From NCBI GenBank assembly GCA_022827265.1, contig JAJDTF010000059.1:1-37273 (forward strand): a stretch of 37,273 nucleotides of DNA. The letters are read 5' to 3'. The position numbers and the translations under genes were made by a program. Origin of the DNA: Acidimicrobiia bacterium (lineage in GTDB: Bacteria; Actinomycetota; Acidimicrobiia; Acidimicrobiales; Poriferisodalaceae). The notes below the pieces were generated by a model that saw nothing but the letters and a program-made list of their open reading frames with translations, had not been told where the DNA came from and did not search any database. Below are positions 1,000-36,909 of this stretch, piece after piece. The number at the start of each line of letters is the position of its first letter. Position 1 is the stretch's first letter.

Positions 1000-2538
1000 A
1001 TGCAGGCGCCGGCGGCGCAGCCGTCGGTCTTCGCCGTCGTGCCGCAGATTCTCGACGCAGCCGGCCGGCCGCTCGCCCCGTCGGTGGCGCCCCCCGTCCC
1101 GCGCTCGGCGCCGTCGGGCGCTGTGCCCGCCGACCGCACCGCCCCGCCCGCCGACGCGCCCGCATCAGACAGCTACCGGTGGCGGCTGCTCGGCGTGATC
1201 GGGCTGGCAGTGCTCGGGTTCGGTTCGTTGATGACCTTGGTGGGGGTTTCGCTGACGCCGATCGCCGAAGACCTGGGAACCTCACTGCCCACGGCCGGCT
1301 GGGTCATCACCGGCCTCATGCTGGCCATGGCCGTCTCGACACCCGCCGGCGGCAAGCTGGCCGACCGGTTCGGGCACCGCCGTATCTTCCTCATCGGCAT
1401 CGTCGGGATGACCGCGACGATGATCGCCAACTACTGGGTGCCCGACATCGGCACCTTCATCGCCGTAAGAGTGGTATTCGGGCTGTGCGGCGGGCTGCTG
1501 ATGCCCTCGGGCATGGCGCTGCTCATGCATGCGTTCGGCCCGGCCGAGCGGGCACGGGCCGTCGGCTGGTTCCAGTTCGCCATGACCGGTGCGCCGACGA
1601 TCGGCGTGGTCGTCGGCGGCCCGCTGCTGAACGTGTTCGGCTGGCGGGGCATCTTCTTGCTGTTCGGCGTGATCAGCCTCGTGTCGTTGATCTTCGCAGC
1701 CGTCGTCGTCAAGCCGATTCCGCGGGGCGCTCGGGTACCGATCGACGTCCTGGGGGCGCTGCTGCTGGCCGGCGGAACGCTGCTGGTGCTGTGGGCGATC
1801 ACCCGGCTGCCGATGCTCCTGCGGGCAGGCGATGGGCTGCTGTCAGACCAGACGCTCATGCTGATGCTCGCCGGGGCGGTGGTCTGTTACGTGCTGTTCG
1901 TGCTGTGGGAACGCCGCGCATCCGCCCCCTTCTTGGACCTGCGCCTGTTCCGCCGAGCCAGCTTCACCTTGCCGCTGCTGTCGGCGCCGGCCAACCAGTT
2001 CGCGTACATGGGCGGCTTCATGGTGGTGCCCTGGGTGCTGCAGGAGCGGTATGGCTTCTCGGTGGGCATCGCTGCGATGCTCATGGTGCCCCGGCCCGGT
2101 GCGTTTGCCGTGGCTTCGCCGCTGGGCGGCACGCTGGTGACCAAGATCGGTGCCCGGATCCCGATGTTCTTCGGCACCTCCGCGATGATCGGCTCGATGA
2201 TCGCCTTCGCCCTGGGTGCCAAGCCTGTGGGCTGGGGTCTCGCGGCGATCATGGTGGGGCTGGTGCTGTCGGGTGTGTCGGCGGGCGTCGGCTCGCCCGC
2301 TTACCAGGTGCTGGTCGCCAACTCGGTCGAAGACAAAGACCTCGGCATGGCCAACGGCATGAACCAGACGGTCATGTGGATGGGCATCATCCTGGGGATC
2401 CAGTCGATGCTGGCCTTCACCGGCGAGGATCCCTCGCTGGGCCGGCTGCGAGCCACGTTCCTGTTCGGCGCCGCAGTGGCCGCAATCGGCTACGTGGCCC
2501 CGCTGTTCGCCACCCGCCGATCCACCCGCATGGCCTAG
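1000..2538 (+). CDS. MFS transporter, DHA2-like (14 TMS), probable drug/metabolite exporter
   Basis: An integral membrane proton-coupled exporter of the major facilitator superfamily. About fourteen hydrophobic segments can be counted, which fits the DHA2 (EmrB/QacA) subgroup rather than 12-helix families. Motif A is present between helices 2 and 3 as GGKLADRFGHRR, and a charged/proline segment follows helix 6. The first 60 or so residues after the chosen start are rich in Pro and Ala and should be a cytosolic tail. The frame stays open upstream to a TTG at 832, but that extension reads as non-coding, so I chose the ATG at 1000. An in-frame GTG at 985 close behind AGGAG (978-982) is an alternative. 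Export of a toxic compound or pathway intermediate is inference. Confidence 0.85.
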   Translation: MQAPAAQPSVFAVVPQILDAAGRPLAPSVAPPVPRSAPSGAVPADRTAPPADAPASDSYRWRLLGVIGLAVLGFGSLMTLVGVSLTPIAEDLGTSLPTAGWVITGLMLAMAVSTPAGGKLADRFGHRRIFLIGIVGMTATMIANYWVPDIGTFIAVRVVFGLCGGLLMPSGMALLMHAFGPAERARAVGWFQFAMTGAPTIGVVVGGPLLNVFGWRGIFLLFGVISLVSLIFAAVVVKPIPRGARVPIDVLGALLLAGGTLLVLWAITRLPMLLRAGDGLLSDQTLMLMLAGAVVCYVLFVLWERRASAPFLDLRLFRRASFTLPLLSAPANQFAYMGGFMVVPWVLQERYGFSVGIAAMLMVPRPGAFAVASPLGGTLVTKIGARIPMFFGTSAMIGSMIAFALGAKPVGWGLAAIMVGLVLSGVSAGVGSPAYQVLVANSVEDKDLGMANGMNQTVMWMGIILGIQSMLAFTGEDPSLGRLRATFLFGAAVAAIGYVAPLFATRRSTRMA

Positions 2539-2771: not shown

Positions 2772-4466
2772 ATGGCGACAGAGCGTGTGCCGGATGAGGT
2801 GCTTGAAGCACTGGAGGCGATTGGGCGCGGATCGACGCCCGGTGATCTCGAGTCGGAGACTTTGGAGTTCAAGTCGGCTCGTGGGGGAGCACGAAGAACT
2901 CGCATGGCGCTGGCTGAAGCCGCTGCGTGTCTGGCCAATGGCCACGGCGGCGCTGTGGTTCTCGGAGTCGACGATGACCAGAGTGGTGCAGCGGCCTTCT
3001 CCGGCACCGATCTCGACGATCTGGAGGCGCGCCGCTACATCTTCGAGACGGTGACACCGGGCCTCACGGTGGGCCTCGCGGTTCATTGGCACCACGAGGC
3101 AAGACTGTTGGTTGCGCATGTGCCGGTCGGAGCGACCGTTCACGGCGTCGCCGGCCGAGTCACGCGGCGCATCGGGCGCAGTTGCCTTCCGCTGGCCCCC
3201 GACGAGATTGCGGCGCTGCACAGTGAGCGGCACGGAGTCGATCCATCCGAGGCACGCAGCAGCCGAACCGTCGAGGATCTCGACCCGATCGCGATGGAGG
3301 TCGCCCGCGGGGAGTTGCGGCGTCTCGGCGGCGAACGAGGACGATGGGCCGAACTGCCCGACGCCGAATTGTGCTCAACGATGGGCTTGGCTTCATCCGA
3401 CGGGGGGCTGTACGCAGCGGGGGAGCAGTTGTTGTGCGCTACCGGCGAGGAGATCATCGTCTACCAGCACCGCCGGAGCGCTGGCGGTCCACCCGACGCA
3501 ACGGAGCGCATCGCGATGCCAGTGCTGCCGGCATTCGGCCGTTTGCTGGAGCTCGTGGCCTCCCGGAACCCCTTCGAGGCGCTGCTGCTGCCGAACGGCC
3601 AACAGTTGCAGATGCACCGTTACCCGCCTGAGTCGATGCGCGAGGCTGTCGCGAATGCTCTCGTCCATCGCCGTCTCGACATCGCTGAGCCTGTGCGGGT
3701 CGAGCACTTCGACGATGCACTGTCGGTCACCTCGATGGGGCCGTTCGTCAGCGGCGTCACTGAGCACAACATCCTTTCGACAACATCTCGCCCTCGCAAT
3801 CGGCTTCTCGCGCGCGCATTTCGAACGTTGGGCCTGATCGAGGAACTCGGCACCGGTATCGCCCGGATGTACCGGTCGATGCTGAGCCTCGGCAAGCCGC
3901 CTCCGACCATCTCGGGCTCCGCAGAAGCAGTGCGGGTGCAGTTCGATGGGGGTCCGGCTGAGCCTGACTTTGCATCGTTCGTGGCGCAACTCGACGGTGC
4001 CCAGCGCGACGATGTCGAATCGCTGCTGGTGCTGCGTCGGCTCTGCGGGTCGGGCACGGTTGCACCGACTCAGATGGCCCCTGTCCTCCAGCGTTCCGAG
4101 ATGGACGCGGCCCGAGTGATGCAGCGCATGACCGCCGAAGCTCAACCGCTCATCGAACCGTCGCAGGGCAGATCGAAAGGACCCTCGACCCGGTACCGGC
4201 TCACCCCAGAGGCGGCCCGAGGCTTGGGCTCGGCCGTGCGACGCTCTCGGCGGGACACCAGTGAGGTCGAAGATACCGTCGCTGCGCATGTGAACAAGCA
4301 CGGCCGCATCAGCAATCGGGTCGTGCGCAACCTCTTCGGCGTCGGCACGCCGAGAGCGTCGGCCATCCTGCGCGAGCTGGTCGATCGCGAGGTGCTCGAA
4401 CGGATCACTGACGCCCCACGCGGCCCCAGCGTCGCCTACGGCCCCGGCCCCCGCTTCGACACTTGA
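2772..4466 (+). CDS. AlbA_2 (Schlafen-like) / RecG-C-like ATP-binding regulator
   Basis: A 564-residue protein of the AlbA_2 type, often annotated as putative DNA-binding or ATP-binding protein. Residues about 20-130 hold the AlbA_2 domain, with the LEFK motif and the ANGHGGAVVLGVDDD segment. Residues about 280-370 match the RecG C-terminal/HATPase_c_4 region: REAVANALVHRR, then RNRLLARAF and EELGTGIARM. The C-terminal 150 residues look like winged-helix segments (VVRNLFGVGTPRASAILREL). Such proteins act as transcriptional regulators, and some occur in defence loci. The start is the ATG directly behind the inverted repeat, with no Shine-Dalgarno. The AT-rich stretch 2539-2732 upstream differs from its neighbours and may mark acquired DNA. 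It converges on the next gene with 22 bases between. Confidence 0.85.
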   Translation: MATERVPDEVLEALEAIGRGSTPGDLESETLEFKSARGGARRTRMALAEAAACLANGHGGAVVLGVDDDQSGAAAFSGTDLDDLEARRYIFETVTPGLTVGLAVHWHHEARLLVAHVPVGATVHGVAGRVTRRIGRSCLPLAPDEIAALHSERHGVDPSEARSSRTVEDLDPIAMEVARGELRRLGGERGRWAELPDAELCSTMGLASSDGGLYAAGEQLLCATGEEIIVYQHRRSAGGPPDATERIAMPVLPAFGRLLELVASRNPFEALLLPNGQQLQMHRYPPESMREAVANALVHRRLDIAEPVRVEHFDDALSVTSMGPFVSGVTEHNILSTTSRPRNRLLARAFRTLGLIEELGTGIARMYRSMLSLGKPPPTISGSAEAVRVQFDGGPAEPDFASFVAQLDGAQRDDVESLLVLRRLCGSGTVAPTQMAPVLQRSEMDAARVMQRMTAEAQPLIEPSQGRSKGPSTRYRLTPEAARGLGSAVRRSRRDTSEVEDTVAAHVNKHGRISNRVVRNLFGVGTPRASAILRELVDREVLERITDAPRGPSVAYGPGPRFDT

Positions 4467-12531: not shown

Positions 12532-13725
12532 ATGGATGTCTCGCGGAACCACAGGCGCGTGGTCGGAGTTCAGCTGAGCCTGAAGCCCTATCTGCATATG
12601 CGCGCCGGTGCTGCAACGACGGGCCACACTGAACCGGTGGAGGTCGGGTCGGCGATTTCGTTGTTCTCAGGAGCAGGCGGGCTCGACCTTGGTGTCGAGC
12701 GAGCGGGGTTCCGAACCACCGTCGCGGTCGAGTGGGACGCTGACGCGGCGGACACCATGGAGAAGAACGCCAGCGCGCACTTCCCCGGCCTGCGGGAGGT
12801 CGTGCGCGCCGACCTGTACCCGCTTGCTGCGCAGCGGGACGGCGGCGTGACCACCGCAGAGATCCTCCATGCCGGCGGATTCAGCGTTCGGAACCGGCCG
12901 GACCTACTCGTCGGTGGGCCTCCCTGCATTGCGTTCTCGAAGTCGGGTTTCTGGCTTGACTGGAAGCGGGAGGGCGTCGACCCCGCAGCGAGCCTGCTGC
13001 AGGCGTACACCGCAGTGCTGGCACAAGCGCGGCCGCGATTCTTCATCCTTGAGAATGTGTATGCGTTGACGTTCGACAACAAGGCCAGCCGTCCGGCCTT
13101 CGAGCGGCTGCAGAAGGAGTTGAGCGCAGCGGGGTACGACTCTCGCTGGGGCGTGCTGAACGCAGCCGACTATGGCGTTCCTCAATCTCGACCGCGTCTG
13201 TTCATTGTTGGCGCGAATCACGGCGAGACCGTTCCAGAGCTTCCCGCCCCTACCCACCACGGCGATTGGGAGCGGCGCAAGACGGTCGGCGGCGAACTGC
13301 CGCACACGACCGCTGGTGAGGCATTGGCGGATCTTGCCACGGTGCCCGAGCCCGAGGAAGTGGTCCGGGGCCGCTGGGGGCACCTGCTCCCTGAGATTCC
13401 ACCGGGCGACAACTATCTCCACTTCACCGCAAAGCGCGGGCATCCCGAGCCCATTTTCGAGTGGCGCTCGCGGTTCTGGTCCTTCCTGCTCAAGCTGGAC
13501 CCACATAGACCATCGCCCACCATTCAGGCACAACCGGGTCCCAACGTCGGCCCGTTCCATTGGGAGAATCGCCGGTTGCGAGTGCCGGAGCTCAAGCGGC
13601 TGTTCACGTTTCCTGACGACTTCGATTTTGTAGGCCGTCGTGCTTCGATCCAGTCTCAGGTCGGCAACGCCGTTCCTCCTCAGCTGGCGCAGCAGGTAAC
13701 AGCCGAGGTTGCAATGGTGGCTTGA
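12532..13725 (+). CDS. DNA (cytosine-5-)-methyltransferase
   Basis: A type II C5-cytosine methyltransferase of 397 residues. Conserved motifs in order are: I (SLFSGAGGLDLGVERAGF, SAM binding), II (AVEWDADAADT), IV with the catalytic Cys (GGPPCIAFSKSG), VI (ENV), VIII (QSRPRLFIVG) and X (QVGNAVPP). The usual Gln after the catalytic Cys is Ile here. The variable target-recognition region lies between motifs VIII and X, and its recognition sequence cannot be read off. The start at 12532 is supported by the leaderless-type -10 box; it leaves about 40 residues before motif I. The cognate endonuclease immediately downstream is broken, so this enzyme now acts as an orphan methylase. Confidence 0.93.
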   Translation: MDVSRNHRRVVGVQLSLKPYLHMRAGAATTGHTEPVEVGSAISLFSGAGGLDLGVERAGFRTTVAVEWDADAADTMEKNASAHFPGLREVVRADLYPLAAQRDGGVTTAEILHAGGFSVRNRPDLLVGGPPCIAFSKSGFWLDWKREGVDPAASLLQAYTAVLAQARPRFFILENVYALTFDNKASRPAFERLQKELSAAGYDSRWGVLNAADYGVPQSRPRLFIVGANHGETVPELPAPTHHGDWERRKTVGGELPHTTAGEALADLATVPEPEEVVRGRWGHLLPEIPPGDNYLHFTAKRGHPEPIFEWRSRFWSFLLKLDPHRPSPTIQAQPGPNVGPFHWENRRLRVPELKRLFTFPDDFDFVGRRASIQSQVGNAVPPQLAQQVTAEVAMVA

Positions 13726-15115: not shown

Positions 15116-18100
15116 TTACGTGCCGCGTGCGAATCGTTCGGACTGGACGTCGTGCATGCGGCCGCGCGAATCATACGAATCCGCGACGAGCCGCAAGACC
15201 CGTGCAGTGCGGGGCCACCGGTCCCCGATTGCTTGCGCTTGGTCCCTGTAGCGACGACTCAGTTCCCGTTCGGATTCCCCTCCATCCATCAGACCACGGC
15301 TGTGGACACCGCGCAGGTTCGAAATGCCAATAGCGAGGCCGTTTTCGATATCGGGATCGCGCAGTTCTTCGATCAGGTCCCGAATCGGCGGTGGCGGAAC
15401 GATCCCCAGCTCATCATCGGGGTCGGCTGGTGCCTTGGCGAGCATCTGCCCGAGGTGACTGCATCCCAGGCCCGACAGATCGAGTACTCTGAACCTCTCT
15501 CGGGCTTCGCGGACCCAATCGCCGATACTCACCGGATCGACAGTGCCGTCCTCTCTCGTACCTGGAACTTTCTTCCAGTAGTGCAGCACTGTCCAAGGCC
15601 TGCTGGCAGCGAGCGTGGCGAGCCGCTGTGTCGTGTCGGCCTCGTCGGGGTCGCTTGGCTCGCTTTCATCCACCCGCGTGTACATGCTGGCAACGAGTTC
15701 GACGAAGAACCTCGGATCAAGCGAGAGCCTTGCGTGCAACACCGATGGTCGACTTCGGCTGCCTGGTACCTCGGCGAGCAGGAGCTCGAGTTGCGCGAGT
15801 CGAATCTGCCTCGAGTCGTCGAGATTGTGTTCAGTCAGCGGCAATCGATCATTGAGCCAGTCGAGCACCTCTTCGGTTCGGAACCGCAACCCTTGGGCCA
15901 TCCGCGGTGTATCCGAAGCGGCGACAGCTTCAAGCGCCCGTAGCGCGAGTTCCACCAGCCGCGAACTCTCGCTGCCGGCTGCCTCGTCCGGATCGACTGT
16001 CGCAAGGCGTTGATACCAGAGCAGTTCGATGGCGGCCTCGGCCCTGTCCGAGACCAACAGTCGTTCTGCTGCCTCGGCAACGACTGTGAGGTCCATGCCA
16101 TATGGCAGCGGAGCGAAGTGCGCCCAGTAGGCCGCCTCGACTTCAGGCCCGAGAGCTTCGGCGACTTCCCAGGCATGCGGGAACTCTCGAAGCGTGGTCA
16201 ACAGCCGTGCCACGTTGGAAGTGCTGAGGTGGTGTTCGCGCAACTCTGCCAACCACTCTGCGAGGTCCCCGTCCTCGCGGTGCAAGTGGTTGAGCCTCTC
16301 GGTGAAAAAGCCCATCGCCACCAGGTCAAGAGTCACACCGTCGTCTTGGGGGCCGATTGCTTGCATTGAGCTGTGTTCGACGGCATCGATGGCCGGATCA
16401 GGCGACGCGTCGTCTGCAACCCAGCCGGCGAGGTCGAACGTGAGTGTGCGTACAAGCGTCGATTCGCCACTGTCGAGTGTCAGCTCATCCGAGTTCGCGA
16501 GTTCTGCCAGCACACAGCCGATGTATTGGACTCCGGAGACCTCACGGTCACCTTGTGCTCGGACAGCCAGCCTGCGAATGCCTGCTAATCCGCCGGCCGA
16601 ATATGCCTCGCCCACTGCTGTATGGCGACGCTCAGCAAGACGCCGTTCCTCCGCTTCACGATCCTTGCCGAGTCCAGTCACGTCAATGTCCGGTGCATGT
16701 GACTCGAACAACCATGCGCCTGCAGTGGCCGTGTCGTCGTCTCCGATGCTCTCCGCGGACCGTTCGACGCGCGTGAGTTCATCGGGCTCCAGAGTCCAGA
16801 ACGCATCGCTGAACTGACGGTGGAGGCGGATGAACGACCGTAAGCGATCACCCAGCAACGATCGGTCGAGTGCTCCTTGAGTTGCGGACTCCTCGACAAT
16901 GTCCAAGACTCTGGCCCGTGCCTCCGGCGCCAGGCGCATGAACCTGCCGCCCTCGTCGAGCGGCCAGAACATGTCGGCGAGGTGCTCGGACTCGGCGGCC
17001 CTCGCAGCGAAGCACTCGATCATTTCCAGCAGCAGTGCGACGACTTGCTTGGTCGCGGAGTTGCGGTCCTCAAGCGGCGCCGGCTCGAAGACGGCGGGCC
17101 ACTCGCGGATCTCCGGTGCCGTGTTCCGAGTTCCGAGAGAACGGTGCGGAGCGAGGTCCCACAGACAGCGCCACAGTGCAGTACGCCTTTCGTTGGCGCC
17201 AGGTGTCTCGTCGCTCATGCACCGGCGGCACAATCCTGCGAGTGCGCTGTTCCGTTGTTCGGTCGCCGACCCTGTCTGGGGAAGCGGCGGCATGAACAGC
17301 GAGACAAGGCATCTATGTGCCTCGGCGGCCACGTCGTTTTCTTCGGTTGCTGCGATCGTCAGGAGGGCGTCTGACACGAGTGCCAAGTGCCCGGGATCAG
17401 GGGACCAAGCGAGCGTTTCCAGAGCACGCCGCAGCGCATGCCAGCCAGCGTCGGACGACGGGCCGACACTGCCCTTGCTCAGGACTCGCAATCCGTCGGG
17501 AGACTCTCGCGCGTCATGGAGCACAGGTGCGATGGCGTCCAGAAACTCGTCCGGTGCCGCTTCAGCGAGCAGGGGCAGGACATCGTCCAGATCGACGATG
17601 CGATGAAGCGTGGGATGAGCCGCACTTGCGTCCCGGCCAGATGCTGCCCCCCGACTATTTCCCTCGCCCAATCGCTGTTGTCCATTGTCTGCATCGTCGG
17701 CGCCGAGCAATCCTCGGACGATCAACGCGGCCTGCACCCTGGGACTCGTTCCGCCGGCCAGCGGCGTGTCGATGCCGAGCACCCCGAGGAGCGCCGCCGA
17801 GCGCGCGACTCCGTAGCGCAAGTCGTGGCTATATGGAGATTGCGTTTGGACACGCCCATCGATCTCGAAGGGTGTCCCATCGGGCCAGCGTTGCACCTCG
17901 GTCTCAGTGAGCACACGTTGGGCCGCAGAGGAGAATCGGTCGAGAAGACCCACAGGTATCTCTAGGGCGAGATGCAGCCAGGATTCTTGCGGTGCGACTA
18001 GGTCCCACTGGTCACCGACCTGCGCGATCAGGGGGTCGGCACCTTCGCTGAGCGGGCGGAGCGTGAGCAGCAGATCGTCGTAGCTCAGGTCGTTGCCAGC

Positions 18101-20362
18101 AAGTTCGCACAAGAGGGACTGGTCGCTCTCGTGGCGCTCGGACCAACGGCCAGCCAGCAGAGCTGCCCACACCGCGGGACGGTCCCGGTTGTCTGGCAGG
18201 CGGTCCAGCCAAGCAGGCGTGACGGGCTGTGGACCCAGTTGGAGCGTCCTTCGCAGCGCACCCAGGCTGCGACGTCCGAGTGCCGCCAGCCGCCACGCTT
18301 CGCTGCGGTCCAAGCCCTGACGTTCCAGCGCATCAGCTGCAACCGTCGGGTCGATCGGTCCGACCTCGATCAGGGCTTCATGTTCGCCAGCATCGATGCT
18401 CGGGCGCGGGGCACGGGCGAGGGGAACAACCGTGCAATGCTGCGACGGTTCCGAGCCGTCAGCGACGTCGAGTTCGGAGGCCACCAGAATCGCGCCGCCG
18501 CCGGGCTCGCGCTTGAGGCGCCGCCAAGCAGCGGCGTCGGACACCAGCAGCATCCGGTCCAGAAGCGCCTTGCCGGGTGTTTCATGTCGGGCACCGGCTG
18601 CCAAGACGAAATCGATGGCATCTTGGGTGCTCTCGGCGGCGACGTACACGATCCCGCCTCCCGGTGTGCATCTCTCGGCGAATTCTCGGTACGGGTGCTC
18701 GCGGCCGGCAAGCAGCACTTCTGCGCCGAGCCGCCTGCCAGTATGTGCGAGCTCATGTTCCCAATGCCTGCGAGCCGACGTGAAGCCGTCAGGCACCAGA
18801 CCAAGCCGTTCTGAGAGCCGGGCGCGGGTGGCTGGAGCTTGGATTAGCCAATTGAGCAGGTCGTCGACATCAAGCGCTCTGAGATCGCGCCAGTGCCCAT
18901 CCTCACTGTGCTGCTCCTGCCATCGACGCTTCGCTTGCTTCCGGTTGGTGCCGGCGCTTGTCGGGCCAGCCGAGCGAAATGCCGTGGGCGGCGTCTTTTT
19001 GGCCTCGGGCCATAGGCGGGGCGTGAGGTGGACATATGTGGTCTCGTCGGCGTCCGGACGTGCCTCGTCGGCCCTCTTGCGGTAGTTGGTGTCGGCATTC
19101 CGCTCGACATCAGCCGATGTCGATACCTCCCAGCAAGAAGGCCCCGCGGGCACCCAAGCCGTTCCCCGGTGGCTCTCGACCACGAGATCGAAATCGGGAC
19201 GCCCGATTCCCTCGGCAGTCGGGCAGTCGATCCGGACTAAGTCATGAGCAGGCGTGGTCTCCACAATCAGATCGCGAACGAGTTCGACCAATTCCGCCCG
19301 AGCAGACAGCGTGCCGGCCCATTGAAGGATGTGGTGACGTTCGACGAGCCCTAGGCCGTCGCGGCCGGGGCTAGCGCCGATCATGCCGCCGAGACCCGCT
19401 GCCCTAGCTGTCGTATCCGGACCGGTCGGCATGACGCCCCTATCGGAGGCCAGCGCAGCCGGCAGCGGATGGTCGGAATCTCGGCGTGCCCATGTCAGGC
19501 CGTCCTGCTCAAGGAGGAACACAGCACGGTCCAGCGACGCCGGTTCGGACTCGCCGAAGCGTGTGCGGAGCACTGCTCGTGCGTCGAAGGGCCCCGCGCC
19601 GAGCCAGACATAACCGCCCGTGGCTGAGTCTGCGGCGATGCCAGCCTGTTCAGGGGTACAGAAGTGCCGCTCGAACCAGGCGAGCATTTCAGCAACCACT
19701 TCGGCGTCTTCGGCGCTGCAGCGTTCTGCGATTCGCAAGGAAGCCTCGGTCAGCTCCTCAAGGGCAAGGCCGTCATCCCTCGATACGTCGGCCGCAGCGA
19801 GCACAGTGCGAAAGTCACGAAGCGTCTCGGCTTCGTCCGCAGAGATGGCATCGTCGGCTTCGAGGCCGTTGATCAGCGAGTCCGAGAGATCGGGTGGTTC
19901 CCGGTAGCGCTCGCCACGAGCAACTTCGAGTCGGAACAGTGCGCCGACCACGGCGCGTCTCGCGAGCGCCATGGCACCTGCTTTCGAGATCGGCAGGAGG
20001 CGTCGCGCTTCGGCGATCCAATCGGCAACGACATCGTGTGCAGGCGGTTGGGCATCGGCGGGACGTTGGTATTCGACAATGTCGAGATGCCACCCTGGTC
20101 GGCTGTCGACGAAGGTTCGCAGCGCTGCGAGGCGCGCTTCCGTGCTGTCGTCGCGATCCGATGGCGCGAGTTCGACGACGCGAGCTTCGGCACTGTCGTC
20201 CTCTCCCCTCCGGGCGACGAAGTAGGCAACGAGTTCCGCTTCAAGTTCCAGCCCGCCACTGGGTTCGAGTCGCTCGGAAGCGGTGACCTCATAACCAGCC
20301 GCCTCATATCGTCGGCGCGCTTGGTTCCCAGCGGCCCAGAAGTTCAGTGCTGGGGCAGCCAT
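15116..20362 (-). CDS. 1748-residue protein with REase-like and STAND-like regions, candidate defence effector
   Basis: A very large cytosolic protein with no membrane segments. Residues about 370-515 hold a restriction-endonuclease-like domain: GRPDFD, then CWEVSTSADVERNADTNYRKR, TTYVHLTPRLW and WRDLRALDVDDLLNWL. I recall this pattern (WEFGT...KAxxDYxKRT) from a family of large bacterial proteins of unknown function. Residues about 545-720 (LLAGREHPYREF, IVYVAAEST, DRMLLVSDAAAWRRL) look like a STAND-type NTPase region, but no Walker A lysine is visible. The remaining 1000 residues are helical and repeat-like, suggesting a sensor. Residues about 115-225 weakly resemble a HEPN-like helical segment. 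The start has GGAGG five bases upstream, and the gene overlaps the RusA-like gene by 19 bases. A nuclease-based defence role is inference. Confidence 0.7.
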   Translation of the reverse strand: MAAPALNFWAAGNQARRRYEAAGYEVTASERLEPSGGLELEAELVAYFVARRGEDDSAEARVVELAPSDRDDSTEARLAALRTFVDSRPGWHLDIVEYQRPADAQPPAHDVVADWIAEARRLLPISKAGAMALARRAVVGALFRLEVARGERYREPPDLSDSLINGLEADDAISADEAETLRDFRTVLAAADVSRDDGLALEELTEASLRIAERCSAEDAEVVAEMLAWFERHFCTPEQAGIAADSATGGYVWLGAGPFDARAVLRTRFGESEPASLDRAVFLLEQDGLTWARRDSDHPLPAALASDRGVMPTGPDTTARAAGLGGMIGASPGRDGLGLVERHHILQWAGTLSARAELVELVRDLIVETTPAHDLVRIDCPTAEGIGRPDFDLVVESHRGTAWVPAGPSCWEVSTSADVERNADTNYRKRADEARPDADETTYVHLTPRLWPEAKKTPPTAFRSAGPTSAGTNRKQAKRRWQEQHSEDGHWRDLRALDVDDLLNWLIQAPATRARLSERLGLVPDGFTSARRHWEHELAHTGRRLGAEVLLAGREHPYREFAERCTPGGGIVYVAAESTQDAIDFVLAAGARHETPGKALLDRMLLVSDAAAWRRLKREPGGGAILVASELDVADGSEPSQHCTVVPLARAPRPSIDAGEHEALIEVGPIDPTVAADALERQGLDRSEAWRLAALGRRSLGALRRTLQLGPQPVTPAWLDRLPDNRDRPAVWAALLAGRWSERHESDQSLLCELAGNDLSYDDLLLTLRPLSEGADPLIAQVGDQWDLVAPQESWLHLALEIPVGLLDRFSSAAQRVLTETEVQRWPDGTPFEIDGRVQTQSPYSHDLRYGVARSAALLGVLGIDTPLAGGTSPRVQAALIVRGLLGADDADNGQQRLGEGNSRGAASGRDASAAHPTLHRIVDLDDVLPLLAEAAPDEFLDAIAPVLHDARESPDGLRVLSKGSVGPSSDAGWHALRRALETLAWSPDPGHLALVSDALLTIAATEENDVAAEAHRCLVSLFMPPLPQTGSATEQRNSALAGLCRRCMSDETPGANERRTALWRCLWDLAPHRSLGTRNTAPEIREWPAVFEPAPLEDRNSATKQVVALLLEMIECFAARAAESEHLADMFWPLDEGGRFMRLAPEARARVLDIVEESATQGALDRSLLGDRLRSFIRLHRQFSDAFWTLEPDELTRVERSAESIGDDDTATAGAWLFESHAPDIDVTGLGKDREAEERRLAERRHTAVGEAYSAGGLAGIRRLAVRAQGDREVSGVQYIGCVLAELANSDELTLDSGESTLVRTLTFDLAGWVADDASPDPAIDAVEHSSMQAIGPQDDGVTLDLVAMGFFTERLNHLHREDGDLAEWLAELREHHLSTSNVARLLTTLREFPHAWEVAEALGPEVEAAYWAHFAPLPYGMDLTVVAEAAERLLVSDRAEAAIELLWYQRLATVDPDEAAGSESSRLVELALRALEAVAASDTPRMAQGLRFRTEEVLDWLNDRLPLTEHNLDDSRQIRLAQLELLLAEVPGSRSRPSVLHARLSLDPRFFVELVASMYTRVDESEPSDPDEADTTQRLATLAASRPWTVLHYWKKVPGTREDGTVDPVSIGDWVREARERFRVLDLSGLGCSHLGQMLAKAPADPDDELGIVPPPPIRDLIEELRDPDIENGLAIGISNLRGVHSRGLMDGGESERELSRRYRDQAQAIGDRWPRTARVLRLVADSYDSRGRMHDVQSERFARGT

Positions 20363-36234: not shown

Positions 36235-36897
36235 TCAGCCAGCCGCAGGGACGGTCACCGGTCGGTCGCCGAACTCGGGCCGCTCGGTGCGGGTCTTCTT
36301 CAGCTCCCAGAAGCCGTCGATGTCCATCATGGCCACCATGCCGTCCCACAGCTTCAGGGCGTCTTCGCCCTTGGGCGCCCGGGTGATGACCGGGCCGAAG
36401 ATGCCCACACGCTCGCCGTCGCTGCGGTTGAGGGCGATGATCGGCGTGCCGACGTCGGTGCCCACGAGCGCCAAGCCCTCGTCCATGCGGGTGCGAATCT
36501 CGGCATCCCACTTCTCGTCGGTGGCCGCCTTGGCGTGCTCGGGATCGATCCCGAGCTCCTCAAGCGCCTTCGCGATGTCGAAGTCGCGGTCGCCGTCGTG
36601 GTGGATGCGGCTGGCGAAATCCCAGTAGACGCCGAACACGGCGTCGTCGCCCTCGGCGGCCCGGATCGACTCCATGACCCGCAGCTGACCGTGCGTGCCT
36701 ACCACTGCGTCGTAGTACGGGCTGTCTGTCGGGGGCTCATTCTTGAAGAGCAGGCTGATCGGCTGCCACTTCACCTTCAGGTTGCGCTCGGAAGCGACGT
36801 CATCGACGACCCACCTGGCCGTCACCCAGCACCAAGGTCAGATGGGGTCGACCCAGAATTCGATCTCGGCGGCTTCGCTACCCGTGTCTGTTGCCAT
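36235..36897 (-). CDS. DsbA-like (Rv2466c/FrnE-type) oxidoreductase, probable selenoprotein
   Basis: A 220-residue thioredoxin-fold protein. The frame from ATG 36897 reads EIEFWVDPI, then TGA at 36838-36840, then PWCWVTARWVVDD. In mycothiol-dependent Rv2466c-type enzymes this site is a CPWC motif, so the TGA replaces the first active-site Cys. Reading it as selenocysteine gives UPWC (Sec20, Cys23) and a continuous domain. A 7-bp hairpin with loop AGGUG lies 14 bases after the TGA (36805-36823), the geometry of bacterial SECIS elements. The start is supported by TAGATT six bases upstream. A plain stop or a sequence error are the alternatives; conventional gene callers would start at 36825 and lose the active site. 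Confidence 0.75.
36805..36823 (-). promoter_or_regulatory. Candidate bacterial SECIS hairpin
   Basis: On the coding strand GACGGCC pairs with GGTCGTC (seven pairs, one G-U) around the loop AGGTG. The loop G-G-U lies at +23 to +25 after the TGA, the same place as the essential loop bases of the E. coli fdhF element. The hairpin is inside coding sequence, as bacterial SECIS elements are. Confidence 0.6.
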
Positions 36898-36909
36898 GCG
36901 GGCAATCTA
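36898..36909 (-). promoter_or_regulatory. Leaderless-type -10 box before the DsbA-like gene
   Basis: TAGATT on the minus strand (36904-36909) fits TAnnnT, with six bases to the ATG at 36897 and no ribosome site. It supports the start that includes the TGA codon. Confidence 0.5.

Follow-up and report, generated by a model that had tools for sequence, protein, structure and literature searches.

The window analysed here, a stretch of 37,273 nucleotides of DNA from an Acidimicrobiia bacterium, carries on its minus strand a reading frame that runs from an ATG (36895-36897) to a terminal TGA (36235-36237) and would encode 220 residues with an in-frame TGA as codon 20 (Table 1). On direct reading the sequence around this codon is IEFWVDPI-U-PWCWVTARW and other in-frame stops are absent, in agreement with the first-pass annotation, which had described a frame broken only by a TGA in place of the first Cys of a CPWC active site. 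That annotation also held that the two sides of the TGA form one protein, and indeed the match to the PDB sequence of Rv2466c spans residues 10-210 and that to Pfam family PF22234 residues 19-201. Its warning that standard gene callers would lose the active site is borne out by the list of open reading frames, where a 196-residue frame beginning at the downstream GTG appears. Because NCBIfam offers no model that covers the protein (release 20 has no family for it, and the 23 members of our protein alignment A1 gave chance-level matches, the best at 18.9 bits against a cut-off of 92.75), truncation of the gene in standard annotation is to be expected. Elsewhere in the window lie a C-5 cytosine DNA methylase (12532-13725, plus strand), whose best PADLOC match is DruM (341 bits), a Schlafen AlbA_2/RecG-C-like protein (2772-4466, plus strand) and a frame of 1748 residues (15116-20362, minus strand) that is matched neither in Pfam (E 1e-10) nor in PADLOC (E 1e-5).

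Table 1. Features of the predicted selenoprotein locus, in window coordinates.
Feature	Position	Strand	Remark
Predicted selenoprotein gene, Rv2466c-type DsbA-superfamily reductase	36235..36897	-	220 aa plus terminal TGA
Predicted Sec codon (codon 20), an in-frame TGA at the start of the UPWC motif	36838..36840	-	
TGC, Cys23, predicted resolving cysteine, aligned with Cys22 of Rv2466c	36829..36831	-	
Hairpin predicted to be a bacterial SECIS, after a 14-nt spacer; stem of 7 bp, loop AGGUG (36812-36816)	36805..36823	-	
196-aa ORF from GTG 36825, 3' of the in-frame TGA, without the active site	36235..36825	-	ORF list
TAGATT, -10-like hexamer, 6 nt 5' of the ATG	36904..36909	-	Sequence pattern only

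Several lines of comparison place the protein in the Rv2466c-type subfamily, the one to which it had first been assigned. PF22234 (mycothiol-dependent nitroreductase Rv2466c) is matched over the whole model (positions 1-180 of 180; 150.1 bits against a cut-off of 27, E 9.7e-44), as it is by 23 of the 23 members of alignment A1, while PF01323 (DSBA) is the second Pfam match (36.5 bits against a cut-off of 25.6, E 5.7e-9), the UxxC motif being present. The four distinct PDB sequences that match are, by their titles, Rv2466c and an M. leprae homologue, and these two proteins also account for the ten best PDB chains in a structure search with the AlphaFold2 model (mean pLDDT 90.7). In alignment with the PDB sequences, U20 stands opposite Cys19 and C23 opposite Cys22 of Rv2466c, which are described as the nucleophile and the resolving cysteine, respectively, of that enzyme (PMC11841060, PMC8280269). 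The window protein thus shares with the Rv2466c/Mrx2 family (PF22234; PDB 4ZIL, 4NXI and 5XUR; C. glutamicum NCgl2339 and NCgl2478) full-length homology (147 bits), the same fold (TM-score on the query at most 0.79) and nucleophilic and resolving positions in register. In place of the nucleophilic Cys of that family, however, the window protein has a residue encoded by UGA, and a SECIS-like hairpin lies behind this codon. It differs also from the classical exported DsbA oxidase, which has CPHC and an export signal, in that its motif reads UPWC and no hydrophobic stretch is apparent, as judged by eye, in the 19 residues that precede it.

A homologue is present in 83 of the 99 genomes compared (own genome included). 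In the 70 loci of this set at which the codon was read it is TGA in 46 and Cys in 24, and the TGA loci comprise 43 close orthologues in 43 genomes and three divergent ones (L093, L094 and L095), which are 32-38% identical and still belong to PF22234. In a sample of the phylum a match at 1e-10 was found in 102 of 396 genomes; 29 of these loci were read, giving 27 Cys and two repeats of TGA loci already known in the order. A further 13 matches, among those listed from the phylum sample, were flagged as containing TGA and were considered as candidates for a TGA form outside the order; their TGA sits near the C terminus, and in 13 of 13 the site itself is TGC. The expectation that homologues would display either Cys or TGA at this codon therefore holds at 112 of 112 loci (70 + 29 + 13, two of them repeats), and TGA occurs there, among the matches listed from the 99 relatives and the 396 phylum genomes, only in the window's own order. 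When GTDB species genomes were scanned, 210 relatives were confirmed, of which the best 80 by score (the named loci) all have TGA; as these were chosen by score, 80 of 80 is no unbiased rate, and they overlap heavily with the 99-genome set. Relatives that carry a name are Acidimicrobiia, among them the marine actinobacterium MedAcidi-G3, 'Candidatus Microthrix', Acidimicrobiaceae and uncultured Ilumatobacter. Many relatives seemed to have two TGA codons, and a second Sec residue was entertained for them; the second TGA proved to be the stop codon at the end of the gene, beyond which the sequence is not conserved. Two paralogues of the Cys form that lack the resolving Cys, with the motifs CPFA and CPWA, also occur in the window's own genome (G000:C78:15243-15893 and G000:C73:64461-65051).

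These comparisons bear on two explanations in which the TGA has no coding role. It could be argued that, as the assembly is a draft with 163 contigs, the interruption is a sequencing error or frameshift, or marks a pseudogene. The same TGA is found, however, in the 43 orthologues and in all 80 of the named loci (best 80 of 210; the sets overlap), in frames that are intact and conserved, which leaves this explanation with a negligible probability; a misread TGC or TGT, which resequencing had been proposed to reveal, is excluded by the recurrence of the codon in 43 genomes. Alternatively, the TGA may be a real stop that ends a short leader peptide, with the protein starting at GTG 36825 and lacking the active site, as the presence of the 196-residue frame in the list of open reading frames would allow. 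Against this, the amino acids encoded 5' of the TGA are conserved despite variation in their codons, and in an alignment of 23 sequences the stretch between the TGA and the GTG has an invariant Pro21 and Cys23 and a nearly invariant Trp22. The TGA form, moreover, co-occurs with selA, which is above its cut-off in 75 of the 99 genomes: the 46 genomes that carry the TGA form are all among these 75, compared with, among the matches listed, 0 of the 24 genomes without selA (Fisher p 2e-8). A genuine stop is thus very improbable.

The genome itself encodes the Sec machinery, the search for which had been suggested as a check. A tRNA-Sec with a confirmed TCA anticodon scores 67 bits (cut-off 47), selA (380 bits) and selB (273 bits) lie on one contig, and selD scores 355 bits, the three genes being above their curated cut-offs; a second, weaker tRNA-Sec match (48 bits) is also still above 47. 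It should be emphasized that the tRNA-Sec and selB models match in all 14 control genomes and that, for this reason, only matches above the cut-off were counted. The selD gene (G000:C39:37080-38033, L057) has an in-frame TGA in its own active site, which reads GAGUACK, and SelD is thus itself a predicted selenoprotein. A formate-dehydrogenase-alpha-like gene (G000:C73:82941-84806; 612 bits, below the cut-off of 666) has one in-frame TGA, and such a match with an internal TGA was seen in 29 of 46 genomes searched. The Cys found at this residue in homologues might indicate that TGA is read as Cys, or as Trp, through a changed code or a suppressor tRNA. Such recoding is extremely improbable, as TGA terminates nine of the 14 large window frames that were checked, this gene included (some of the 14 are perhaps not genes), the genome has a tRNA-Sec with anticodon TCA, and the hairpin behind the codon is under constraint.

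That hairpin is formed by pairing of 36817-36823 with 36805-36811, a stem of seven pairs of which one is G-U. The first-pass annotation had reported a 7-bp hairpin with the loop AGGUG, which is correct, and had placed it 14-32 bases downstream, which is off by one, since it starts at the 15th base after the TGA. An Rfam scan of the region gave no match, although we do not assume that the Rfam set contains a bacterial SECIS model. Folding of the single sequence was tried as proof of a SECIS and does not provide it: the stability of the hairpin is unexceptional when set against shuffled sequences (z 0.12), and it is consequently the comparison of relatives that carries the case.

Numbering the T of the TGA as 1, bases 18-24 pair with bases 30-36. 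Over 43 orthologue rows pair 18-36 is GC in 41, AU in one and UU in one; pair 21-33 is GC in 34, AU in six, GU in two and UA in one; and pair 24-30 is CG in 38 and UG in five, the remaining stem pairs being constant except for one GC that replaces GU. Pairing is retained in 300 of 301 cells over these 43 rows, in 453 of 455 over all 65 distinct rows and in 559 of 560 over the 80 named loci (best 80 of 210 relatives). In 42 rows taken from the 65 distinct rows of 45 nt, 99.3% of cells are paired and nine are changed on both sides, shares that are non-random because the 23 rows omitted all have the commonest stem. In a shuffle test of these 42 rows 0 of 500 shuffles did as well on four of five measures, and 22 of 500 on the fifth, while sliding the stem partners destroyed the pairing signal. 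The stem changes fall at third codon positions, with the exception of pair 22-32 in L067 (Val to Ala). Synonymous choice is restricted in the same place: among conserved codons with three or more synonyms, to which the test was confined, the six degenerate hairpin codons (V25, T26, A27, R28, V30 and V31) have normalized synonymous entropies of 0.05-0.35, whereas 45 others do not fall below 0.42 and have a median of 0.76 (one-sided Mann-Whitney p 4e-5), although Phe106, a two-fold codon outside the 45, is likewise low at 0.18. The Arg28 codon is CGU at 68 and AGG at 12 of the 80 named loci (best 80 of 210 relatives); six other conserved Arg columns have CGC 170, CGG 119, CGU 80, CGA 65, AGA 21 and AGG 21.

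Compensatory changes and synonymous constraint together identify the hairpin, within the main clade, as a predicted SECIS element. The SECIS of fdhF is a hairpin just after the UGA, inside the open reading frame, with a G in its apical loop and a bulged U. The window-type hairpin resembles this E. coli type in its position directly 3' of the UGA inside the frame and in the apical-loop G, but is a plain 7-bp helix without the bulged U, with a loop of AGGUG or CGUUG. According to a figure legend in PMC1088965, guanosines of the bacterial SECIS loop are conserved. In the three divergent UPWC homologues L093-L095 the 7-bp hairpin is absent from the same place, and their predicted folds do not surpass those of shuffled sequences (z -0.10, -0.77 and 0.84); by visual inspection, bases 18-21 of each could form four pairs with bases 30-33. 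Taking codon, machinery and hairpin together, we infer with near certainty that Sec is inserted at codon 20.

The distribution of Sec and Cys forms was followed in a maximum-likelihood tree of 105 rows, comprising 86 of the 99 examined loci and 19 of the 80 named loci; the 13 examined loci omitted are two repeats, three partial sequences and eight near-identical rows of the window's genus. Branches with strong support require two or more switches between Sec and Cys labels, and four are needed on the best tree. The main group (55 rows, support 100/97) contains 52 Sec rows and the Cys rows L099, L100 and L102, which come from genomes with selA, while L093-L095 form a separate Sec clade apart from it. 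The simplest reading of the tree, though not the only one, is that Sec was gained twice in the family, L093-L095 perhaps representing a second change from Cys to Sec. L099 (match at 1501-2151, minus strand) has TGC in a CPFC motif and retains the pairing GACGGCC-CGTTG-GGTCGTC, like that of the SECIS; in this one sequence the hairpin is possibly a fossil SECIS left by a change from Sec to Cys. All 46 Sec forms retain the resolving Cys, as against only 22 of the 64 Cys forms (5 of 24 in the 99-genome set, 13 of 27 and 4 of 13 in the phylum sample), and thus the Sec form goes with a two-residue mechanism.

Signals around the start of the gene suggest that its mRNA is leaderless, since the TAGATT hexamer lies near the ATG and no Shine-Dalgarno sequence precedes it (36898-36909). 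The same may apply to much of the clade: a TANNNT hexamer stands before the start at 36, and a Shine-Dalgarno-like core at seven, of the 59 named loci whose start was found by rule (for the other 21 of the 80 the rule yielded none that could be used). Operon context was considered as a guide to function and abandoned, as no neighbour is constant across the 80 named loci (best 80 of 210), nor was any constant thiol or selenium neighbour gene found at the loci examined. An Amidohydro_2 gene lies downstream in the window and in its nearest relatives, and tblastn detects a homologue of it at 28 of the 80 named loci (best 80 of 210), 27 of them just downstream and the other, at L196, distant and on the other strand. 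In other clades a homologue of FrhB_FdhB (F420 hydrogenase/dehydrogenase beta) lies upstream on the same strand, at 25 of the 80 named loci by tblastn (best 80 of 210; for example L207, L189, L166 and L205), and in 22 of the 25 the match ends no more than 200 nt from the Sec codon.

In the mechanism that we propose, UGA codon 20 would be decoded as Sec by the tRNA-Sec, SelA, SelB and SelD of the same genome, insertion being directed by the hairpin that starts, inside the coding sequence, 14 nt after the UGA. The product would be a thiol-disulfide oxidoreductase of the Rv2466c type (Mrx2, 'DsbA-Mrx1') in which the selenol of Sec20 is the nucleophile and Cys23 the resolving residue. The Sec20 selenolate would attack a disulfide, a mycothiolated mixed disulfide or another oxidized substrate, Cys23 would then close a Sec20-Cys23 selenenylsulfide, and two molecules of mycothiol would reopen it, with the resulting mycothione recycled at the expense of NADPH. 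For Rv2466c, mycothiol is described as the reductant and mycothione as being recycled with NADPH (PMC11841060, PMC8280269); for the window protein mycothiol is the presumed reductant, and both donor and substrate are extrapolated, as is a putative role in defence against oxidative stress. The window's own genome has genes that resemble MshC (425 and 416 bits; curated cut-off 485), MshA (375 bits; 462.5) and mycothione reductase (308 and 277 bits in two neighbouring pieces; 635.65), and as these are present yet below their cut-offs, mycothiol in this organism is plausible only.

An alternative is that the protein is a selenoprotein whose donor is not mycothiol but thioredoxin or, as the variation among neighbours suggests, an F420-linked, FrhB-like partner, or that it serves as a peroxidase or detoxifying reductase. 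The FrhB_FdhB genes upstream at 25 of the 80 named loci (best 80 of 210), 22 of them within 200 nt of the Sec codon, would fit such a role, as would mycothiol-gene matches that lie under curated cut-offs, and Sec alters reactivity, so that donor and substrate may have shifted. The similarity to Rv2466c, however, is full-length and includes the active site, MshA-, MshC- and Mtr-like genes are found in the own genome, and there is no FrhB match at the named loci of the window's genus (L129-L137 and L151). We regard a donor other than mycothiol as a credible but minority possibility. The preferred reading, to which we assign a probability of about 0.88, is that the gene at 36235-36897 encodes a selenoprotein, a mycothiol-linked oxidoreductase of the Rv2466c type in which UGA codon 20 is decoded as Sec under the direction of the hairpin.

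Selenocysteine forms of the DsbA superfamily are known in bacteria, as the first-pass annotation had stated. DsbA-like UxxC selenoproteins were first described from the Sargasso Sea set (nine sequences, COG2761; PMC1088965), a later account gives 45 proteins in 41 organisms (PMC5029168), and a 2026 inventory includes a 'DsbA-like protein form 1', PF01323 (PMC13188914). The window protein shares with these membership of the DsbA superfamily, the UxxC motif with Sec at the nucleophilic position and a match to PF01323, but its best model is PF22234. As the published set could be compared only by its descriptions, which name neither Rv2466c nor mycothiol and do not give member lists, an overlap is possible. 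In the open-licence PMC literature no paper was found that mentions both Rv2466c and selenocysteine, or that combines selenoprotein, 'DsbA family' and Actinomycetota, and searches for selenoproteins of Acidimicrobi or for selenocysteine with mycothiol returned, as judged by titles and the beginnings of abstracts, none on this enzyme. The Sec form of the Rv2466c branch is thus apparently unreported, in the sense that no report of it was found.

A broader reading, speculative and on balance doubtful, is that the Acidimicrobiia possess a selenium branch of mycothiol redox chemistry, in which Sec was gained at least twice and gave way again to Cys within the main clade or next to it, in one case leaving an apparent fossil SECIS (L099), and in which the F420/Fe-S FrhB-type gene, in several clades the immediate upstream neighbour, may couple F420H2 to the selenoenzyme. 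In M. tuberculosis, Rv2466c is described as a stress reductase and prodrug activator (PMC11841060). This analysis extends the view of that branch by predicting that, across a large set of uncultured Acidimicrobiia, its nucleophile is selenocysteine. The occurrence of Sec and Cys forms within one clade, together with a Cys gene in which the hairpin can still be read, would provide natural pairs for assessing the benefit of Sec over Cys.
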